Of a stretch of DNA of 64,000 bases, positions 2,436 to 52,762 are shown in pieces. Under the pieces are notes generated by a model, which was not told the DNA's origin, did not search any database, and worked only from the letters and a program-made list of their open reading frames with translations. A program made the translations under genes and the position numbers. Source of the stretch: Heliocidaris erythrogramma (taxonomy: Eukaryota; Echinodermata; Echinoidea; Camarodonta; Echinometridae); the NCBI GenBank assembly GCA_025617745.1, contig CM046857.1, positions 26,940,094 to 27,004,093 of the forward strand. Direction: 5' to 3'. Positions within the stretch are counted from its first letter, which is position 1. Each line of letters begins with the position of its first letter.

Positions 2436-3730
2436 TGACGAAGTAATTACATCTTAAAGATAATAAAGTGTCAATGTTTGGCTCGCTGGAATCCAGCAGC
2501 GTGGTGCCCGAACATCCTTTTATTTTGGGAAGCGAGATGGTCGGCTATCCTTATCTGTGGGCGGGAAGGTACTCAAAATGTTATAATTGTTTGGATTATC
2601 TGGTAACAAAATCATTATTCTATAGACAATAATCTCCTTTTTTACTTGCTCACTAGCGCGTAAGATTTAGAAACGGAATAGTTTGGGACAGGGAACGCCC
2701 TTCATTAGGGCGAGTGAAGTGCCCAAATATTCCATATTCGGCAGTAGGGTTAAGTAATATTATTCATGGCTCATTATTACATGTTCTATATTTGTCTTTT
2801 GATGGCGAAATTGCATTTCCATTACAATTTTTAAAAAAAAAGGGTTTTATTTTTTTTTGTAACTCGCTTCGCTCGCTTGCAAATTGTAGAAACGGGGAGT
2901 ATGATATTCTGCCAAGAGGCATCAGCTCCCCCTTTCAAAAACATTACGTGGCCATGTTCTGCTTGTAAAGATCTACTTGGAACTTTGGTGTGTCTCATTT
3001 TCCAAAGCGGTATATACATTATATAAATAACTTCAAGCCAATTTCGTTGTAGCAAATTTAATCCGGAATCCGATCATTCACTTTCTTCAATACATCATTA
3101 TGTATTTGTAATCACCGAAGCAATATCATTTTATGAGAAATGAAACATGTATTCCTGAGGCGCTCGCTCTCTACGCTCGCTCACAAATATTGGTTATTAT
3201 AATAGGAACAATGATAATAATGATGATAATAATAGTAATAATTATAATAATAATAATCATAATAATAATGATAATATTGATAGGAATTACGATAATAATG
3301 GCTATTTCTCTGGATTTTATTATAATTGTTATCATCATTGTTATGATTATTGAGTACGAAATTAATATCTTTACACTTGGCCGTCTTTCCCCTCCTCCCT
3401 ATCCGAAATACGGATTGACGCCGTATTCTCTGAATTTACAACCCTTTTTCATTTTCGGAAATACGAACCCTTTTTCATTTTCGGAAATACGAACCCTATT
3501 TCATTTTCGGAAATACGAACCCTTTTTCATTTTCGGAAATACGAACCCTTTTTCATTTTCGGAAATACGAACCTTCGGAATTATGAACCCTATTTCATTT
3601 TCGGAAATACGAACCTTATTTCATTTTCGGAATTATGAACCTCATTTCATTTTCGGAAATACGAACCTTCGGAATTATGAACCCTATTTCATTTTCGGAA
3701 AAACGAACCTTCGGAAAAACGAACCTTCGG
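2436..3730. repeat. Large direct duplication, copy 2
   Basis: Near-identical to 1-1290. The identity ends inside the tandem array: copy 2 continues with extra short units and then enters different sequence (CATGTAACCAGACAGG), while copy 1 continues into the spacer. The array is therefore at the duplication breakpoint. Confidence 0.95.
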
Positions 3731-3835
3731 AAAAACGAACCTTCGGAGTAACGAACCTTCGGAATAACGAACCTTCGGAATTATGAACCTTCGGAAAAAC
3801 GAACCTTCGGAAATACGAACCTTCGGAAAAACGAC
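3445..3835. repeat. Nested tandem array, copy 2 (expanded)
   Basis: The same 26-bp units as at 1010-1290, followed by roughly ten short 14-16-bp units (TTCGGAAAAACGAACC and variants) against two or three in copy 1. The short units have expanded, or contracted in copy 1, since the duplication. Each unit junction reads GAACCTTC, an inverted GAAnnTTC pair. Confidence 0.9.
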
Positions 3836-3961
3836 ATGTAACCAGACAGGCTTTTGGGATGTTATTGCCTTATCACCACATGTGCAAGATCAACAACAAC
3901 AGCACAAAGAAATAAACATCAAATCTCAGTTACCGATGCTTACTAAAAATTCTTTAATTTC

Positions 3962-4111
3962 TTGGTACTACAAAATTTCAATATGGCACGAAAAAGAGAC
4001 ATGATAACGAAGCTTTTCGATTTCCTGTGCAGACAAAAGGACAAATAATTTGTTGGTACTACAAAATTTCAATATGGCACGAAAAAGAGACATGATAACG
4101 AAGCTTTTCGA
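3962..4111. repeat. 59-bp direct repeat carrying the 3' part of a hammerhead motif
   Basis: Bases 3962-4020 and 4053-4111 are identical (starting TTGGTACTACAAAATTTCAA and ending AAGCTTTTCGA), separated by about 32 bp. On the minus strand each copy carries the GAAAAGCTTC plus GTTATC half of a ribozyme. The first copy loses identity exactly where stem II and CTGATGA should follow. The spacer at 4024-4041 is complementary to 4239-4256 in the centre of the foldback. Confidence 0.85.
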
Positions 4112-4134
4112 CCTGCACTCATCAGGTTATCACG
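4091..4134 (-). ncRNA. Hammerhead ribozyme motif A (core intact)
   Basis: Read on the minus strand: stem I CGTGATAAC, core CTGATGA, short stem II region GTGCAGGTC, core GAAA, then AGCTTC and the stem I partner GTTATCATG. Stem I can form nine pairs including one G-U. The invariant bases C3, U4, G5, A6, G8, A9, G12, A13, A14 and the U16.1-H17 (UC) cleavage dinucleotide are present. Stem III is only the self-complementary AAGCTT, so two molecules would pair there, as in the small dimer-forming hammerheads known from Penelope-like elements. Stem II is weak (a U-U mismatch). Confidence 0.75.
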
Positions 4135-4456
4135 CAGGTATATAACAAATTACTTGAAATCAACTATATTATACTCGGTAAACCCGGACGCAACCTAGAC
4201 GCCGTAATTTCAGAACAATCGCAAAGCTTGGACGAACTCCTTTTGTCTGCACAGAAGAGGTTCATGCGATTGAATGTAAGCGGCTTCCAGAAAGCGTAAA
4301 TGCGCTGAGCTTCTGGCCCGGGACATAATTGAGAATTGGTCGTCGGCGTAGGAGTTCGTCCAAGCTTTGCGATTGTTCTGAAATTACGGCGTCTGGGTTG
4401 CGTCCGGGTTCATCGAGTATAATATAGTTGATTTCAAGTAATTTGTTATATACCTG

Positions 4457-4500
4457 CGTGATAACCTGATGAGTGCAGGTCGAAAAGCTTCGTTACCATG
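4457..4500 (+). ncRNA. Hammerhead ribozyme motif B (core intact)
   Basis: Mirror copy of motif A in the right arm. CTGATGA lies at 4466-4472, GAAA at 4482-4485 and predicted cleavage follows C4491. Stem I pairs 4457-4465 with 4492-4500 with a single A-C mismatch (GTTACC instead of GTTATC). The catalytic core is complete. Stem III is again the palindrome AAGCTT. Confidence 0.75.
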
Positions 4501-4556
4501 TCTCTTTTTCGTGACATATTAAAAATTCTTTGTTGTTACTTTTTACCATATCTTAC

Positions 4557-4697
4557 CCAAATATGGGAGGGTCTGACAGTTCTGACCAGAGTAAACCTGT
4601 TCTGCTGTAGTTATATCAACTATTGGACATTGACAGAAATATCCCGAATCATCCTCGACACATGGAGCACTCTGTTCACAAGGGGTCGAGGCACAAT
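4557..4697 (-). CDS. EGF-like domain exon (partial gene)
   Basis: A 141-bp minus-strand exon encoding one EGF-like domain of about 47 residues. It shows the six-cysteine pattern CASTPC, then CEQSAPC, an eight-residue gap containing a Gly-Tyr-Phe, CQC, and a final NC after about 16 residues. A splice acceptor (TTATCCACAG) precedes it at 4698-4699 and a donor (GTAAGA, complement of 4551-4556) follows. Both boundaries are phase 1, the usual phase for EGF modules in extracellular mosaic proteins such as Notch, fibropellins and fibrillin-like proteins. The calcium-binding D-x-D/N consensus is not evident before the first cysteine. The exon sits 35 bp from the foldback element, within a presumed intron. 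The parent gene reads leftward, and its other exons are either outside the window or at 18.4 kb. The domain is secure; the identity of the gene is not. Confidence 0.75.
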
Positions 4698-5007: not shown

Positions 5008-7164
5008 TAAACCCCTCAAAAAAAGTTCTGCAATTCAACTTTGAGCCTTGATATCTTTTTGGCGGCTTTTTAATCATTCTTGATTTTTAGATCATTAGAT
5101 CATTTATCCCCCTTCACATCCATGCCCCATTTGTAATGGTTATGTCATCCTTGAATGCACAGCACCCCTGAATAGAGGGCAAAGTCAAAAGTGAAAAGTT
5201 GCAAATTGAATGGCTATCTTGGCTATTGTCTATTGCTTTTGTTGCAATGTCGGGTGTGTGTGAATGATGTTGAATGGGTCATGAATGATTCAACAAGTTT
5301 ATTTCCTGTTTGGTAGATGAAATGTGCCTTGCACAAGCTTTATGCTTGGCAGTGCTTACTTTTAAAGAGTAGCTGTTCGCGTATGTTAACATGCCACGTC
5401 TATCAAATGTTGAGAAGGCTCGAGCAATCGGCCAAATCGAAGCCGGTATTCCCCAAAGAGAAGTTGCTGCTCAATTTGGAGTGAGTCCCAGTACCATCTC
5501 CAGATTATTGGCAAAGTTCCGGGAAACTGGGGATGTCAAGGACAGACCAAGGAGTGGTCGTCCAAAGAAGAAAACCCAACAAGAAGACCGCTTCCTGACC
5601 CTTTCTGCCCTGCGGAATCGAAGGTTATCGAAGGACGATTTGCTCGAAGATTTGCCAAGCGACTCTCCGACCAGACCATCAGGAACAGACTTCACGCAGC
5701 CAATTTAAGAGCTCACAAGGCAGCAAGAAGACCTGCACTTTCGGCCTTGCATCGTCATTCCCGTCAACGCTGGTGTTTGCAACATCTTCGATGGAACCGG
5801 GAAATGTGGCAGAATGTCCTTTTTACAGATGAATCCAGATTCTGCTTGAGGAAACTGGACGGAAGGGTGAAAGTGTGGCGTGGCCGTGGGGAACGCTTCG
5901 CTGACTGCTGCATCGACCGGGTAACAGCGTTTGGAGGAGGCAGTGTTATGGTGTGGGGTGGCATATCTGCTGAGGGAAAGACACAGCTTATCATCGTTGA
6001 TGGAAACCTGACAGCAGAGAGATACCGAGACAACATTCTTCGGCCAGAGGTCATCCCATACATGCGCAATCTTGGACCAAACGCCATCTTCCAAGATGAC
6101 AACGCCCTCCCACACAGAGCAAGGATCATCACCGAATACCTGCAGGATGAGGCAGTGACAAGGATGGATTGGCCTGCGAACCGCCCTGACTTGAACCCAA
6201 TCGAGCACCTGTGGGACCAGCTTGGCCGTGCTGTACGCGCCAGAGTGACAGATCACACTACACTGGCTGAGTTGCGACAGATCCTTACTGAAGAGTGGAA
6301 CCTCATCCCACAGCAACGCATCACCAGGCTGGTGACAAGCATGAGGAGGAGATGCCAGGCTGTCGTAGCTGTATTCGGATCTTCTACTCGCCACTGAACT
6401 TCTGATCCTTTGCTATTCTACATTTGATGTGCATGTTACTCAATAAAAAGTGCCAAACATTTTGTCATTTGCAAATTTGTGTATTTGTGTTTGTTTTTGT
6501 TTCGTTAGAGAGGGGAGAGAGAGTTAAAGAACATGAGTTCACATCAAGAAAGGGGAATGTGTTTGTTGAAGTGAAAAGCAATCCAAGAGAAGAGGAGAGT
6601 TTGTGTTGCTTATGTTTCTGTGATAGGGTTACATGGCTGAAAAAGAGATAATTTGCTGAGGGGAGACTTTTTTCCCCACCGCAGTTGTGTACTGCTAAGG
6701 TGGAAACTTGCAATATTCTGCATGAAACCAAAACACAATATTAATGTTATCACAATCAGTTGCTGATTAAAACACATTCCATCTTAAAACAAAAGAATAA
6801 TTCCACTTCAAAATCACTGAAAACAATATTTGTCCACCAAACAAGGAATTACAGCAGAAACATGCACACCTAATACAAAATTAAACAAACCAAAAAGAAC
6901 AAAAACAAAGAAACAAAACCTTTCATTCCAGTTAAGAACTCAGTGTGAACAATAACAATGCATTCTGCAACTTTTCACTTTTGACTTTGCCCTATATTTA
7001 GGTGTACTGCACATTCCGTGATTACATAATCAATACAAATGTGGTATCATTGTGAAGGTGAATAAACAAGCTTTACAATGATATCAAACTTGATGATGAT
7101 CATACAGTTACTAGAGAGATATAAATGCTTAAACTTGAATTGCAGAACTTTTTTGAGGGGTTTA
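5008..7164 (+). mobile_element. Tc1-type transposon with ~200-bp inverted repeats
   Basis: A 2157-bp element bounded by TAAACCCCTC termini and flanked by TA dinucleotides (5006-5007 and 7165-7166), the target duplication of the Tc1/mariner superfamily. Terminal repeats run about 196-199 bp (5008-5203 and 6966-7164). They are well conserved at the outer end (GTTCTGCAATTCAA) and the inner end (27 bp at 5177-5203 and 6966-6992) but diverged between. This layout resembles paired transposase-binding sites at each end of other Tc1 elements. It encloses a broken transposase. It lies in the presumed intron next to the EGF exon, in the opposite orientation. Confidence 0.9.
5391..6397 (+). pseudogene. 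Tc1-like DD34E transposase, frameshifted
   Basis: Cut-and-paste transposase of the element around it. The N-terminal part, from ATG 5391, has a helix-turn-helix with a typical AAQFGVSPSTISRLLAKF run followed by a basic GRPKKKT hinge. The frame is lost between about 5625 and 5655; the downstream part continues in another frame (SDQTIRNRLHAANLRAHKAA) to the stop at 6395-6397. The catalytic triad is intact: D in FTDESRF (5828-5830), D in QDDNALPH (6098-6100) and E in NPIEHLWD (6203-6205), with 34 residues between the second D and E. Joined length would be near the ~340 residues usual for Tc1 transposases. A polyadenylation signal AATAAA lies at 6442-6447, 45 bp after the stop. One indel appears to be the main damage, so it is recently inactivated or carries a sequencing error. 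It is a genomic parasite, not a host gene. Confidence 0.9.
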
Positions 7165-12424: not shown

Positions 12425-14123
12425 AATTAACTTTAAGGGGTTAAATCTCATATGTAAAATAGGTGACTATTCCGCGACAGGCTCCTGGCCTAGTATCAGA
12501 AGGAAATATATTATATATTATATTTAAAAAGAGATGATTGGTACTTCAAAATAATATCAAAATAAAGTTATAGAGCACAGAATCTGACCGAGTTCCTCTC
12601 CTCGTCTCACTACCTACTTCCTCTTTAACACTTTTCAATATCTGTATCTATCTGTATCTCTCATTATTTGTTTTTCATCCAAGTCATTCATTTTTTTGTT
12701 ATTGTTTCGCTCGTCCTTGCTCTCATTCTCTCTCATTTTTCTCTCTCTCTCTCTCCCCTCTCTCTGTCTTTCCTCTCTAATTCCGTCTCTATCGTATTCC
12801 TTCCATGAGTGAGTTATATAATTTAATTGTTTATGGTTTTGTTCATACATTATTTGGATAAAGCGATTATCTTTTGTAATTTTTCACCCTTGATCAACAG
12901 AGAGGGTCTTTCGTGGGAGACCAGTAACAGCAAACAACTAATAATTGATGTACAACTGTGCGCATCGTTTTGTGACGAGCATGAAATTCCACAAACTTAT
13001 GTTTACGGTGTCAAGCGTGCTAGGCTGTTCAAAGTTATAAACAGGTATTTTTGATCTATATTTTAGCAACATGTTGTTTTATTTGACTTTTGAATTTTGA
13101 ATTACGCTAACGGAATATCATTATGAACTCTACATGACTGAGTCGAGTTCGCAGCTGTCCCTACACTTTCATACCTTCGTCGACGTTTCACGAGGGACCT
13201 CACAACTTGGAAGTGCAGCGAATTTCGATGACTTTTTCGCTTTCCATACTGTTTGAGATACATCTTCGAATACTGAGAGGCGACGTGAAATTTCACACTA
13301 TATGTACGTCTAACGTGAATAGAATAAAACCCATTAGAAACACGAAACTTCCTCTGTTTAAATGTCAGATACAACTTTTTGCTTGATTTCAAATGTGAAT
13401 AAGGATTTATCATTATCAAGGAAAATTGAGTGTTCTTTTCATAAATTATAAAATTTCCAATACAGATGATCGGGGACCGCATTAATACCCACTGGTCTTG
13501 CCAAAATCTGCACTTCATAATTAAATACTTATTGCTTTGTAATTGATTTTGGGGTCAAATCCCTCAAAGTTTCTAAACGCCTTCAATTTTCAGAAAACAA
13601 ACAATCAACCACGGGTTCCTAGTTGATAGTTAATAGGGGCATTTTGAATAAGTATAATGTTCGATTTTGTCGTTCACAAAATTCACAGCATGTTACACGC
13701 ATACGTAACCCAAGGACATGCACATGAAATGTACCTTAGGACAGGATGAAACGAATCTGTTACTAGAAATCGATCCCTCCCATGCTCCGGTCGTACTTAA
13801 ACCAGATTTCACCCGAACTACTTTTCAAATGAATATATATTGCTCATATAGTTAGGAGGTTCAATTGACCGCGTCACTGGTTGTGGTCATCTTTGTCAAT
13901 ATTGGAGTTTGACTTTGTTAGTATTACCAAAACAAAACAAAAATGCAAGCTTGTTGGGATTATTGTGTCCATTATGAGTAATCCCCGCTATCCTAACACT
14001 TTAAAAATTCCAAAATGCAGGACAATTTTCTCATACAAATTAAACATATTTAAATTTAGCGTCCACTGTTCCTTCGGCTCTATTATATTGTTTCGTTTTC
14101 TGGCGTTCTGTTCATTCATGCGA
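12425..14123. other. Spacer with one long unassigned open frame
   Basis: A CT-rich block lies at 12720-12790. A 138-codon minus-strand frame (13102-13518) is the longest frame here outside repeats. It is basic at its C-terminal end (a run of KRRRR) and I do not recognise any domain. No splice signals frame it and it may be chance. A 75-codon plus frame (12827-13054) likewise shows nothing recognisable. Confidence 0.35.
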
Positions 14124-14163
14124 ATTTACTCTGATTAGTGCATGTCGAAAAGCTTTAGTATTT
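14124..14163 (+). ncRNA. Hammerhead ribozyme motif E (decayed)
   Basis: CTGATTA (14131-14137), GTGCATGTC, GAAA (14147-14150), then AGCTTT and AGTA. The layout matches motifs A-D but the invariant G8 is T, so catalysis is not expected. Stem I retains about four pairs (TACT with AGTA). No inverted partner was found nearby. Confidence 0.5.
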
Positions 14164-14536
14164 TAGTACATATTATGTCCGTGTTTAACGCTATTTCCGA
14201 TATTTTAAAGTATTAAAATGTGAGTCCTCCCCTGCAGGAATGAACTAATTACAGTAGGCCACAAGAATCGTTTGAAAAACTCTTTAAATCTTTAACATGT
14301 TTAAAGTCATTGTGTATCTTACATGAATAACTACTTAGAGAAAACTGTTTTATCTGCATTTTTCCCAAATAGCTTGAATCTAACTGAACTTACAATTACA
14401 GGCATGCCATGCAGTGAACGAGTAACAACTGACAGTTGGTATCGCATGATTGACTTTATGCCGGAAGAGTCACGTTTGGACAGAACTATTGTCTGATCGT
14501 AACCCTTGTGCAACGGAGCCGGATTTTTTTCAATCA

Positions 14537-19125: not shown

Positions 19126-21265
19126 AGTCTATGGGCCAACGTAGACCCCCCTCCCCCCCCTTAGGCACAATTTTCTGTGATGTTTTCCTGGTAGCTAGGA
19201 CCCTAGGCTATCAGAATCTGCCTGTTTGCCAAAGAGTTAGTGGTGGGTGTGGCCACCAGGGCCGTTACCATGGCAACGCATCAAGGAAATATAGGAATTT
19301 ATTAAAATACCTAATATTTCTAATTCAGAAATTTGAAAAATGACCGGTAACCATCTAAATATATGTATTTTGAGTTTCCTGATTGATTGAAACCAAAATC
19401 TAGGTCATTTAAAGTCACGGTCATGTCAAAAAATGGCCGTTACTATGGAAACGGTAACATAAAAAGTTTATATTTTTGAAAAATATCTAAACTTATCAGT
19501 ATAAAATAGACAGAGAGGTGTCTACACAATCTTAGATTATATTTTTCTGTTAGCTAGGACCCTCAGCTATCATAATCTGCCTGTTTTCCATAGAGTTCAT
19601 GGTGGGCGTGGTCACTAGGGCCGTTACCATGGCAACACATAACGAAATACCGGAAATTAGAAAATACCGTATATTTGTCATTTAACAGCATAAAATATAT
19701 GGTAAAGCCTCTAATATATGTATTTCAACCTGCCCCACTGACTCCAACTACAATCTGAGCCATTTGAAGTCATGGGCGTGTAAAAAAGGGCCGTTGCTAT
19801 GGAAACGGTCCCACAAAATGCTTATATTTGTGTAAAATATCTATGATTTATCAATACAAAATAGAAAACAACTGTCTGCACAATCTTAAATCATGTTTTT
19901 CTGTAAGCTAGGACCCTCAGCTCTCATAATCTGCCTGTTTTCCAAAGATTTCATGATGGGCGTGGCCGCTAGGGCCGTTACCATGGTAACATAACGAAAT
20001 ACTGGAATTTAGAAAATACTGTATATTTGTAATTTAGCAGCATGAAATATACATGGTAAGGACTCTATTATATGTATTATAAGCTGCCCCACTGATTCCA
20101 ACCACAATCTGAGTCATTTGAAGTCATGGGCGTGTCAAAAAAGGGCCGTTGCTATGGAAACGGTCCCACAAAATGCTGTTATTTGTGGAAAATATCAATG
20201 ATTTATCAATACAAAAAAGAAAACAACTGTCTGCACAATCTTAAATCATGTTTTTCTGTTAGGTAGGACCCTCAGCTCTCATTTTCTTCCTATTTTACAT
20301 AAAGTTGGTAGTGGGCGTGACCACTAGGGTTGTTACCATGGTAACACACCAAGGAATTGAATTTTAGAAAATACTATAAAACTATAATTCAACATCACAA
20401 AAACAAAATGTAACCATCTAACTATATGTATTTTGGGGTGCCCGTTTGATTGCAAGTAGAATCAGAGACATTGGAAGGCACCGTCATGTCAAAACATGGC
20501 TGTTGCTATAGAAACAGTATGATAAAAATTGAATATTTCTGTAACTAATCAACACAAAACAAAGAACAGGTGTATGTACACCCTAAAATGGTGTTTATCT
20601 GTCAGCTAAATCTGAGTCATTGGAAGTCACCGTCATGTCAAAACATGGTTGTTGCTATAGAAATGTTATGGTGAATTAATAAATATTAGTGAAAAAATAT
20701 GTAACTATCCAATGCACTTTATAAAGTAAGGGTATCCACAACCTGAAATGAGGTTTTTCCCCTGTAGGTTAGCTAGGACCCTGGATATCATATCCTCCCT
20801 GACTGCCACAAAGGTGGATACTGGGCGACCACTCGGGCTGTTACCATGGTAATAAGATAGGAAATAACATATATGTGTAATTCAACAACGTGAAAATATT
20901 TAGTAGGCATTACATCTATTTCAAGCAGCTCTTTTGAGTGCAATTCTGTTGTGCGCTTTCAAGGTCACAGTCAGGTACACGATTATAATTCTTATTATCC
21001 GTTTGGTCTCAAACTGACGCCGATGGTGGGTGTGAGCACCAGCCCCATTACTATGGCAACGCACCATCAAAATATTGGAAATTGTTTGAAAATAACATAT
21101 ACATGTATATATATATTCTGTTTCAATAATAGAAAACACAAAATATTGGTGTGGATATACATATCATAAACTTCCAGAGTTATGACACTAAATTACAGTC
21201 ATAATCCGAATCACTTAAGGCCATAGTAATGTCAAAACATGGTTGTTGCCATGGTAGTATTATTA
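19126..21265. repeat. Left arm: ~356-bp tandem units
   Basis: Units marked by GCTAGGACCCTCAGCT begin near 19192, 19551, 19907 and 20262, then degrade (20605, 20768). Spacings are 355-359 bp. Each unit carries a GTTACCATGGCAAC-type palindrome and, about 170 bp later, GTTGCTATGGAAAC. Divergence increases inward. Confidence 0.9.
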
Positions 21266-23515: not shown

Positions 23516-25086
23516 TTTGGTGCCTTACCATGGTAGCTACCTTGACAGTCTCACCCATAACCAACTTTGTGGCTACTAGGAAGCTTTCGATTATGATAGC
23601 TGAGGGTCCTAGCTGACAGATAAACACCATTTTAAGCTGTATATACTACTTGTTCTTTGTTTTGTGTTGAAATATTCAATTTTTATCATATTGTTTCCAT
23701 AGCAACAGCCATGTTTTGACATGACGGTGACTTCCAATGACTCTGATTCTACTTGCAATCAAACGGGCACCCCAAAATACATATAGTAATATGGGTACAA
23801 TTTGTTTTTGTGATGTTGAATTACAGATATATGGTATTTTCTAAAATTCAATTCCTTGGTGTGTTACCATGGTAACAACCCTAGTGGACACGCCCACTAC
23901 CAACTTTATGTAAAATAGGAAGAATATGAGGGCTGAAGGTCCTAGCAAACAGAAAAACATGATTTATGTTTGTGCAGACAGTTGTTTCCTTTTTTGTATT
24001 GATAAATCATAGATATTTTCCACAAATAGCAGCATTTTGTGGGACCGTTTCCATAGCAACGGCCCTTTTTGACACGCCTATGACTTCAAATGACTCAGAT
24101 TGTGGTTGGAATCAGTAGGACAGCGTGAAATACATATATCAGAGGCCTTACCATATATTTTATGCCGCTAAATGACAAATATACGGTATTTTCTAAATTC
24201 CAGTGTTTCGCTATGTGTTACCATGGTAACGGCCCTAGCGGCCACGCCCACCACCACTTTGATGTCAAACAAGCAAATTATGATAGCTGAGGGTCACAAC
24301 TAATATAAAAACATTATCAAAGACTGTGCAGACATTTTTTTATTTCTATTTTGTAATGGTTAGTTATAGATTTTTTCACAAATATCAGCTTTCTGTTGGA
24401 CCGTTTCCATAGCAACGGCCTTTTTTGACACGCCCATGACTTTAAATGGCTTAGATTGTGATTGCAATCTATCAGCCAGCTTGAAATACACATAATGGGA
24501 TACTTACCATATATTTTATAGCTATTGAATTACAAAGATGCAGTATTTTCTAAGAATCCAGTATTTTTGGTGTGTTACCATAGTAACGGTCCTACAGGCC
24601 ACACCCACCACCAACTGTACATGAAATAGGCAGATTATGATAGCTGAGGGTCCTAGCTAATAGAAAAACATACTTTAGGCTTGTGCATACACCTTTTTGG
24701 CTATTTCATATTTATAAATTTGGAAAGTTGTCAAAAAAAACGGCTTTTTATGGTACCGTTTCCATAGTAACGGCCATTTTTGGACACGCCCATGACTTTA
24801 AATGGCTCTGATTATGGTTGCAATTGATTGGGCACCTTAAAATACATATATTAGGATGCTTACCAAGTATTTTTAGATTCGTGAATTGGAATTATATGAC
24901 TTTTCCTAAAATTCATATTTTTCTTGATCCGTTACCATGGTAACGGCCCTGGTGGCCACACCCACCACCAACTTTATGGCAAACAAGCAGATTCTGATAG
25001 CTGAGGGTCCTAGCTAACAGAAAAACATCATTTAAAATTGTGCCTAAGGGGGGGGACCTTTTCGGTTTCTGGCCCATGGACTATTT
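23516..25086. repeat. Right arm: ~356-bp tandem units, inverted
   Basis: Reverse-orientation units marked by AGGGTCCTAGCT near 23608, 23937, 24290, 24649 and 25006 (spacings about 330-359 bp). X-box-like palindromes are at 23873, 24217, 24574 and 24931, with the TTTCCATAGCAAC partner motif between them. Confidence 0.9.
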
Positions 25087-51918: not shown

Positions 51919-51958
51919 CATACTGAAGCTTTTCGTCTTGCACTCATCTGAGTATACC
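51919..51958 (-). ncRNA. Hammerhead ribozyme motif C (core mutated at U4)
   Basis: Minus strand: GGTATACT, CAGATGA (expected CTGATGA, so U4 is A), GTGCAAGAC, GAAA, AGCTTC, AGTATG. Stem I pairs ATACT with AGTAT plus a wobble. Stem II is G-C, U-A with loop GCAAG. The U4 change should reduce or abolish cleavage. Confidence 0.6.
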
Positions 51959-51993
51959 GCAAGAGTGAACAGAAAGCCGAAATCGAACGATAT

Positions 51994-52035
51994 AACCTAC
52001 TCTGATGAGTGCAAGACGAAAAGTTTCAGTATGTC
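51994..52035 (+). ncRNA. Hammerhead ribozyme motif D (core intact)
   Basis: CTGATGA at 52002-52008, GTGCAAGAC, GAAA at 52018-52021, AGTTTC, then AGTATG. Stem I forms TACT/AGTA plus outer pairs after one mismatch. Stem II is GU/AC with a five-base loop. Predicted cleavage follows C52027. Stem III is AAGTTT, able to self-pair with one G-U. Confidence 0.65.
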
Positions 52036-52762
52036 TCTCTTCAACGCCATTTCCCGATTCTGTATAGCACCAAACATCTTTTCAGTATTTTTCATGTGAA
52101 AATGTGGGTTTTGTGGCTTGTAGTGGTTTGTAGTTGACAAACACAGTGGAAAATTCACGCTGTACTTTCCGTTTCTTTCATTATTTTCGTAACAAATACT
52201 CCGTACTCGTCATGTCGAAATATGTTGTCCTTTGAGATGGAAATTATCCAGGGTAGTTTTCTCGTATAAAGTTAGAGGGATGGAATGTCCTGATGGGATT
52301 ATGGTCAAAGGGCTAGCTGTTCTAGAATCGCATTATTGGCCACTTATGGCTTATGAACTAAACATGCTAAATACATTTATTACCGCTCATGTGAAACGAA
52401 CCCTTTTATGCCAAAATCGTGTGACGTTACACTGTTCATGTGCGTTGGAATTAATCGTCATTGCGTTTCTTCATTCATTTCATTAGAATCAAAATATTGA
52501 AATGGTTGTTAAAGTACAATTTTATTCCCATCACTGTAATTAAACATGGCATCCCATTTCATTTATAGTTAGAAAATAAAAAAAAACCCAGTAGGCCTCC
52601 ATGTTCTAATTTGAACGTCTAAAGACGAGATTCTTGAATTTTGTGCAACTGTAGTACACCATGATTTCTTCTTCTTCTTCTTCTTCTTTTTCTTTGTCTT
52701 CTTCTTCTTCTTCTTTTTGGTTGGGGTCCAGGGCATCAAACTGGTTATTCCTCTATCATCTT
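52036..52762. other. Spacer; TTC microsatellite
   Basis: Bases 52670-52717 are TTC repeats. An 84-codon plus frame (52232-52486) shows no domain. No gene recognised. Confidence 0.4.

Follow-up and report, generated by a model that had tools for sequence, protein, structure and literature searches.

How Penelope-like elements (PLEs) insert into their targets is poorly known, and the description of the Poseidon PLE of Anolis carolinensis (PAc), in the part of it available to us, leaves the later steps open (PMC11167929). Here we analyze a foldback in a 64,000-nt stretch of the Heliocidaris erythrogramma genome (assembly GCA_025617745.1, contig CM046857.1, positions 26,940,094 to 27,004,093 of the forward strand), which we call the window. 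An earlier note, made from the letters of the window, had taken the foldback for an inverted pair of terminal repeats with a hammerhead ribozyme in each arm. Our analysis indicates that this hairpin is very probably a truncated copy, inserted recently, of a Penelope-like retrotransposon that is numerous in the genome.

Much of the setting is already published. Ribozymes in the pseudo-long terminal repeats (pLTRs) of PLEs, inverted pLTRs, a one-sided tail and target-site duplications (TSDs) are described in the accessible parts of PMC3846280, PMC6155905 and PMC7761336, and the cutting and extension of both target strands, as well as both start sites, in those of PMC11167929. The element found here resembles PAc as described there in having one open reading frame (ORF) for reverse transcriptase (RT) and a GIY-YIG endonuclease (EN), a ribozyme reaching into the beginning of the ORF, a tail delimited by two neighboring internal sites of RT initiation, two target strands that would both be cut and extended, and AT-rich targets. 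It differs in that the predicted ribozyme cut lies 6 nt before the ATG, whereas in PAc it lies 26 bp after it, and in that tailed and tail-less ends are paired in each insertion, with target overlap at the tail-less end. The Anolis ribozyme, according to the same portion of that paper, shows no cleavage without protein and is dispensable for insertion in vitro. In the rotifer Adineta vaga, the Penelope families (Pen2a_Av and others; PMC3846280, available to us in part) likewise have inverted pLTRs, one with a 31-bp tail, TSDs, and the first ORF codons within the pLTR; however, the TSD is mostly 12 bp here against 8-10 bp in the rotifer, and we find far more near-identical copies, many of which are two truncated complementary DNAs (cDNAs) without a full ORF. 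The term "hammerhead" is absent from the text of that paper.

The ribozyme itself also has described relatives. Reviews, as far as their available sections go, describe minimal type I motifs in PLE pLTRs with most of helix III missing, as in our case; what is different here is that six bases before stem I complement loop II, the small PLE variants (Cervera and de la Pena 2014; Lunse et al. 2017) being known to us from the reviews that cite them. Amphibian satellite and axolotl hammerheads, in the accessible part of PMC7229834, share the one-pair helix III and palindromic tetraloop and are thought to act as dimers, but they sit in small non-coding repeats and not at a PLE ORF start. Within the titles and abstract openings of the literature on Penelope pLTRs, inversions and target-primed insertion, we did not find a report of the pairing of tailed and tail-less ends in each insertion, its link to TSDs, or the overlap with the target, and the terms "target site duplication" and "microhomolog" are absent from PMC11167929.

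The window insertion and its parent element

The foldback has 178-nt inverted arms (4064-4241 and 4350-4527) that are 96% complementary across a 108-nt spacer, as the earlier note had recognized, and that differ at 7 positions (171/178 identical over 4350-4527). The extent first proposed, 4072-4521, proves too small, as the insertion spans about 3956-4519 and is enclosed by a single 12-bp TSD. Its build is compound (Table 1). We give element coordinates relative to a reference copy R (L038:480-2250), with R1 at window position 4043. A short first piece of the element 3' end is followed by a filler, by the main 5'-truncated piece, and by an inverted arm that lacks the tail. As AC precedes R1 in a full-length copy (L051) as well, we read the AC of the filler as the putative start of a second initiation at the tail site. 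No separate TSD accompanies this inner tail start (best match 4 nt), and we therefore read the window copy as one event with a restart, although a later nested insertion without a TSD could also have produced it. With high confidence, the window feature is a single PLE insertion of 5'-truncated, head-to-head pieces with a 12-bp TSD, a start-codon hammerhead and an origin in two-strand priming.

The parent element was identified by searching the genome (1.06 Gb, 26 contigs) with the left arm, which gave 40 scored candidates (213 at first look), all at 99-100% identity. Thirty loci of this family (family 1) were examined with 1.5 kb on each side, 20 of them in stretches of about 9.9 kb, and in several of these longer loci minus-strand ORFs adjoin the left arm. 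Of three ORF pieces tested for domains, the one adjoining the near-identical copy L038 (650-2254, minus strand) matches RVT_1 (E 2.7e-8; 34.2 bits against a cut-off of 29.6), followed by GIY-YIG (E 5e-4, 20.7 bits), and a second, in L044, matches GIY-YIG (E 1.5e-4, 22.4 bits), both GIY-YIG scores lying slightly below the Pfam cut-off of 22.6 bits; the third, from an older copy in L036, gave no domain match. A Protein Data Bank sequence search with the RT-EN protein gave no matches. Searched against the genome, the L038 protein yields, among 81 scored matches of 8701 candidates, seven open frames of 858 aa and one of 873 aa. In a 701-nt stretch of one 858-aa copy, L051, the order is pLTR, hammerhead, ATG, MSLFRAILKFCSTKKLFVYFRTRYS. 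The ATG lies inside stem I, so that the start codon forms the end of the ribozyme, and the outer ~25 nt of the repeat, which we call the tail, encode residues close to the N-terminus of the ORF product. An ORF with RT and GIY-YIG, a pLTR and a start-codon hammerhead are marks of a Penelope-like element of the EN+ type. The association with such elements suggested in the earlier note thus holds, and the search it had recommended, for RT and GIY-YIG joined to the repeat, finds them in the ORF piece of L038, with the ribozyme directly before the ORF in full-length L051.

At two sites in the genome (G000:C10:7156443-7162362 and G000:C10:55334128-55338606), oppositely oriented matches to the PLE ORF lie within a few kb of each other; these are perhaps foldbacks with much longer arms.

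Table 1. Parts of the window insertion and positions of its ribozyme features.
Feature	Position	Strand	Remarks
TSD, left copy (TAAAAATTCTTT)	3944-3955	.	
First cDNA piece: element 3' end R5-R69, tail into ribozyme core	3956-4020	-	65/65 identical to L038
Filler: 17-nt inverted element piece (R212-R196), then AC	4021-4042	+	
Main cDNA piece R1-R309, 5'-truncated PLE, 3' end at 4043	4043-4351	-	305/309 identical to L038; EN C-terminus upstream
Position of PLE start codon (MSLFRAILKFCSTKKLF...)	4091-4093	-	6 nt past predicted cleavage; frame from L051
Hammerhead A	4091-4134	-	stem I 4126-4134 with 4091-4099; CTGATGA 4119-4125; GAAA 4106-4109
Left-arm counterpart of the ACCTGC stretch	4134-4139	-	
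Inverted arm, R199 to about R30, no tail	4350-4519	+	element end R29-R30
ACCTGC ahead of stem I, complement of loop II at 4475-4480 (GCAGGT)	4452-4457	+	proposed pseudoknot
Hammerhead B	4457-4500	+	core intact, stem I 8/9
TSD, right copy (TAAAAATTCTTT)	4520-4531	.	

Outer ends, target sites and inner junctions of the foldbacks

Two opposite arms that both reach a start site (R30 or less) are present in 19 of the 30 loci, and every one of these 19 foldbacks has one tailed and one tail-less outer end. The tailed end falls at R1 or R2 (R-7 to R4 after refinement) and the tail-less end at R18-R30 (refined R22-R30). The search query started at R22, and hence introduces no bias toward mixed pairs, although the 19 loci were selected by having an arm down to R30 or less. 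Among the other rows, L022 ends near the edge of the examined stretch and eight more have no inverted piece.

TSDs of 11-22 bp flank 18 of the 19 foldbacks, with a median of 12 over all 19, and a TSD of 11 bp or more is found in just one of the ten other loci checked (L014, 12 bp; ten of the 11 non-foldback loci were covered), the remaining nine having longest matches of 5-8; this contrast is weaker than the counts suggest, as the right edges of the other loci are set where the match to R stops and a TSD may be missed. At the tail-less junction the element shares 2.95 nt with the target on average, compared with 0.43 under a null that omits the choice of the longest shared string (reached in 0 of 2000 draws), and leaving out L008 and three microsatellite loci gives a mean of 2.8 (15 values). 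Overlap at the tail junction is 1.5 nt, with 1-3 unmatched bases in 4/19. In some copies the C, AC or CAC preceding R1 agrees with the element, because the full-length copy reads UUUGUG there.

The earlier note had envisaged an inverted pair of terminal repeats, but the pair is not a fixed one, since the inner junction lies at a different position in each of the 19 foldbacks. In 14 the arms are joined directly, with 0-9 nt of overlap and at unlike element positions (for example R226/R278, R341/R178 and R496/R253), and in the other five a gap or extra pieces separate them. Short-arm ends cluster near the ribozyme, a pattern biased by how the loci were chosen.

Besides the sub-threshold GIY-YIG scores and the selection, edge and null-model limits given with the counts above, several loci weigh against this account of the foldbacks. 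Inverted internal pieces in L018 and L001 reach no start site. In the older pair at L033:8605-8943 the outer ends fall at R29 and R150, which breaks the rule of one tailed and one tail-less end, although the later loss of one end could account for this. The candidate TSD of L008 is only 6 bp long, and those of L009, L011 and L012 sit in AT microsatellites. In a second family described below, L054 has no tail at either end.

Hammerhead motifs in three families

Both window motifs carry the type I core CUGANGA...GAAA...UH, in agreement with the cores first reported, whereas the nine-pair stem I ascribed to both is complete in motif A (9/9, one pair being G.U) and lacks one pair in motif B, in which A4461 stands opposite C4496. 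The AAGCTT described as stem III is indeed palindromic, but as an RNA it forms a single A-U pair capped by the palindromic tetraloop AGCU, and stem II contains one invariant G-C pair. Cleavage is predicted between 4100 and 4099 in motif A and after C4491 in motif B, and the predicted 5'-OH end would lie at GUUAUCAUG. A 30-nt ribozyme string is exact at 4096-4125 (minus) and 4466-4495 (plus), with matches in 0/100 shuffles. A stricter scan, which called for the core, the closing pair of stem II and five unbroken stem I pairs, finds A in the window and misses B, because one difference between the arms disrupts stem I of B, and gives no match in 40 Markov draws. The covariance-model check that had been proposed came out negative: Rfam hammerhead models return no match, neither at the gathering score across the whole window nor with the threshold relaxed to E 10 across 3901-4600.

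As RNA, the foldback has a folding energy of -333 kcal/mol compared with -117 for shuffles (z -34); the 49-nt motifs folded as single strands give uninformative z values of -0.9 and -1.0. The two ribozymes had been placed on one transcript; instead, the plus transcript holds ribozyme B and the complement of A, the minus transcript the reverse, and never two ribozymes together. During synthesis the arms would pair progressively, beginning at the loop, so ribozyme B should be masked, and such masking by the hairpin is plausible from the predicted fold. We infer that the ribozyme of the window copy is a passenger, facing its own complement on a read-through transcript.

Two further families occur in the window. 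A diverged, older PLE family 2 at 51919-52060 has a hammerhead on each strand with other stem I and loop II letters; its minus motif reads CAGATGA, and its plus motif has no upstream flank. The plus strand at 14117-14165 holds a third hammerhead-like relic, with the core CTGATTA. Across the three families the letters of stem I change while pairing is kept, with four of nine pairs changing on both sides in a set of 8 sequences, five of them from family 1. Pairing is present in 85% of cells, compared with 74% in shuffles and 23-42% when the columns are shifted by 1-3, and 13 cells show two-sided change against 5. The 6 pairs with two-sided change are, however, reached in 58/500 shuffles, and additional pair types are no more numerous than shuffling gives. 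Also in favor of a genuine ribozyme, older copies keep it nearly unchanged (L036:6474-7097 has 65 differences to R and 0 between R45 and R98; L033:8605-8773 has 14, one inside the ribozyme), although recombination with family 1 could account for this as well.

In both family-1 window motifs, loop II is the complement of the six bases 5' of stem I, and we propose, from the complementarity, that the two may pair as a pseudoknot. In family 2 the complementarity is full in 9/12 motifs that retain the upstream strand and extends to 4 or 5 of 6 bases in the rest, a comparison that leaves out L059 and arms cut at the junction; in the family-3 relic it is 5/6. The letters GCA/TGC are common to the three families, and 2/5 counted pairs change on both sides. 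When the fold of motif B is predicted, the same pairing turns up as a competing hairpin. Lunse and colleagues are said to describe tertiary contacts for most hammerheads. PLE hammerheads are described, in the available parts of two reviews, as lacking the characteristic tertiary contacts (PMC6155905, PMC7761336).

A genome search for family 2 gave 90 matches from 40 scored candidates, of which 12 loci were examined (ten with most of the unit matched, two with one arm). The ORF start mostly resembles ATGTCTCTCTTCAACGCCATTTTC, likewise at the end of stem I. A tail (at most 2/16 mismatches) is present at exactly one end in 9/11 foldbacks, a count that covers the window copy and L052-L061, with L062 and L063 outside it; the window copy has a diverged tail, with 5/16 mismatches at the right end and 6 at the left, and was judged by eye to be tailed on the right as a tenth case. 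Candidate TSDs at least 9 bp long are present in 7/11. As matches to the whole unit recur, we considered whether the family-2 foldback is copied as a unit, and rejected this because inner junctions differ between the examined copies. Core position U4 varies among the 13 loci (the window and the 12): it is T in 5, C in 6, and A and T on separate arms in 2 (the window and L058). Changes at U4 weaken hammerhead cleavage. The core CCGATGA, with C at U4, is found in L053-L056, L061 and L063 despite their different flanks, and on both arms in L053 and L054, so the changed core was probably already present in the RNA copied into these insertions. Copies whose core is changed have thus inserted repeatedly. 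Insertions with C or A at U4 at differently flanked sites fit the in vitro dispensability of ribozyme cleavage reported in the accessible part of PMC11167929.

Just to the left of the family-1 insertion, two very similar copies of a region containing (ATA)n and TTCGGAAATACGAACC-type 16/26-bp tandem repeats lie ~2.4 kb apart at 697-1302 and 3133-3786. A 216-aa open frame nearby (5747-6397, plus) looks by eye like a Tc1/mariner-type transposase. Farther away, satellite arrays of 355-357 bp at 19180-20348 and 23693-25043 have consensus units that look reverse-complementary.

A candidate insertion mechanism and its rivals

The foldback pattern agrees with a PLE protein able to cut both target strands and to extend each of them. 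The element endonuclease would cut the two strands about 12 bp apart, and each 3' end would then prime reverse transcription on its own element RNA, within the start of the ORF. One target end would start at the outer site and copy the tail (...UUUGUG), while the second would start about 22-30 nt deeper in the element, at a point where it can pair with the RNA through a few bases, A and T for the most part. Neither cDNA would be finished, and the two would be joined head to head, anew at each insertion. Each cDNA starts downstream of the ribozyme, so any arm that extends past about R95 carries the hammerhead, and two such arms give each strand its own. Cleavage of the parent RNA by the ribozyme would release a 5' end a few nucleotides upstream of the start codon.

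The best-surviving rival, which we nonetheless judge improbable, is the snap-back self-priming of one cDNA or of an antisense template, as proposed for the rotifer elements (PMC3846280, in its available part). It would yield the head-to-head inverted arms, and in L001, a locus outside the foldback count, a short inverted R413-R390 directly follows R440 and comes near to such a product. A snap-back, however, would join near-equal element positions, while the 14 direct junctions bring together positions separated by about 50 to more than 1000 nt and the window junction is R309/R199; it also leaves the two different outer start sites unexplained. Still less probable is mobility as a circular RNA, the foldback then being a small non-autonomous retrozyme with a ribozyme in either strand. 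The small size, the type I hammerheads, one per strand, and the recurring family-2 matches to a whole unit of about 140 nt would suit it, but there are no tandem arrays of a 150-450 nt unit at 3900-4600, family-1 copies continue into the PLE ORF, and the inner junctions of family 2 differ among the examined loci. A mobile foldback or miniature inverted-repeat transposable element (MITE)-like DNA element holding hammerhead-like letters by chance in its terminal inverted repeats has the long inverted arms and the TSD in its favor, yet it is the least credible of the three, as fixed terminal inverted repeats were not found, the ends are unlike (one being tailed), the inner junctions vary and copies continue into the RT-EN ORF.

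Two-strand priming remains our preferred origin of the window insertion. We suggest, tentatively and as something short of probable, that PLEs normally insert by two-ended priming, in which one active complex initiates once in each way: one target strand at the outer (tail) site on one RNA, the other at the inner site on another RNA, to which it anneals through short homology. A TSD would mark two-ended events, and one-ended events would tend to lack one. The many near-identical, clean-ended copies in this genome allow such a proposal to be tested by counting tails, TSDs and overlaps. If it is true, the two tail-site starts of the window copy within one TSD would show that the enzyme is also able to begin again on a new RNA within a single event.
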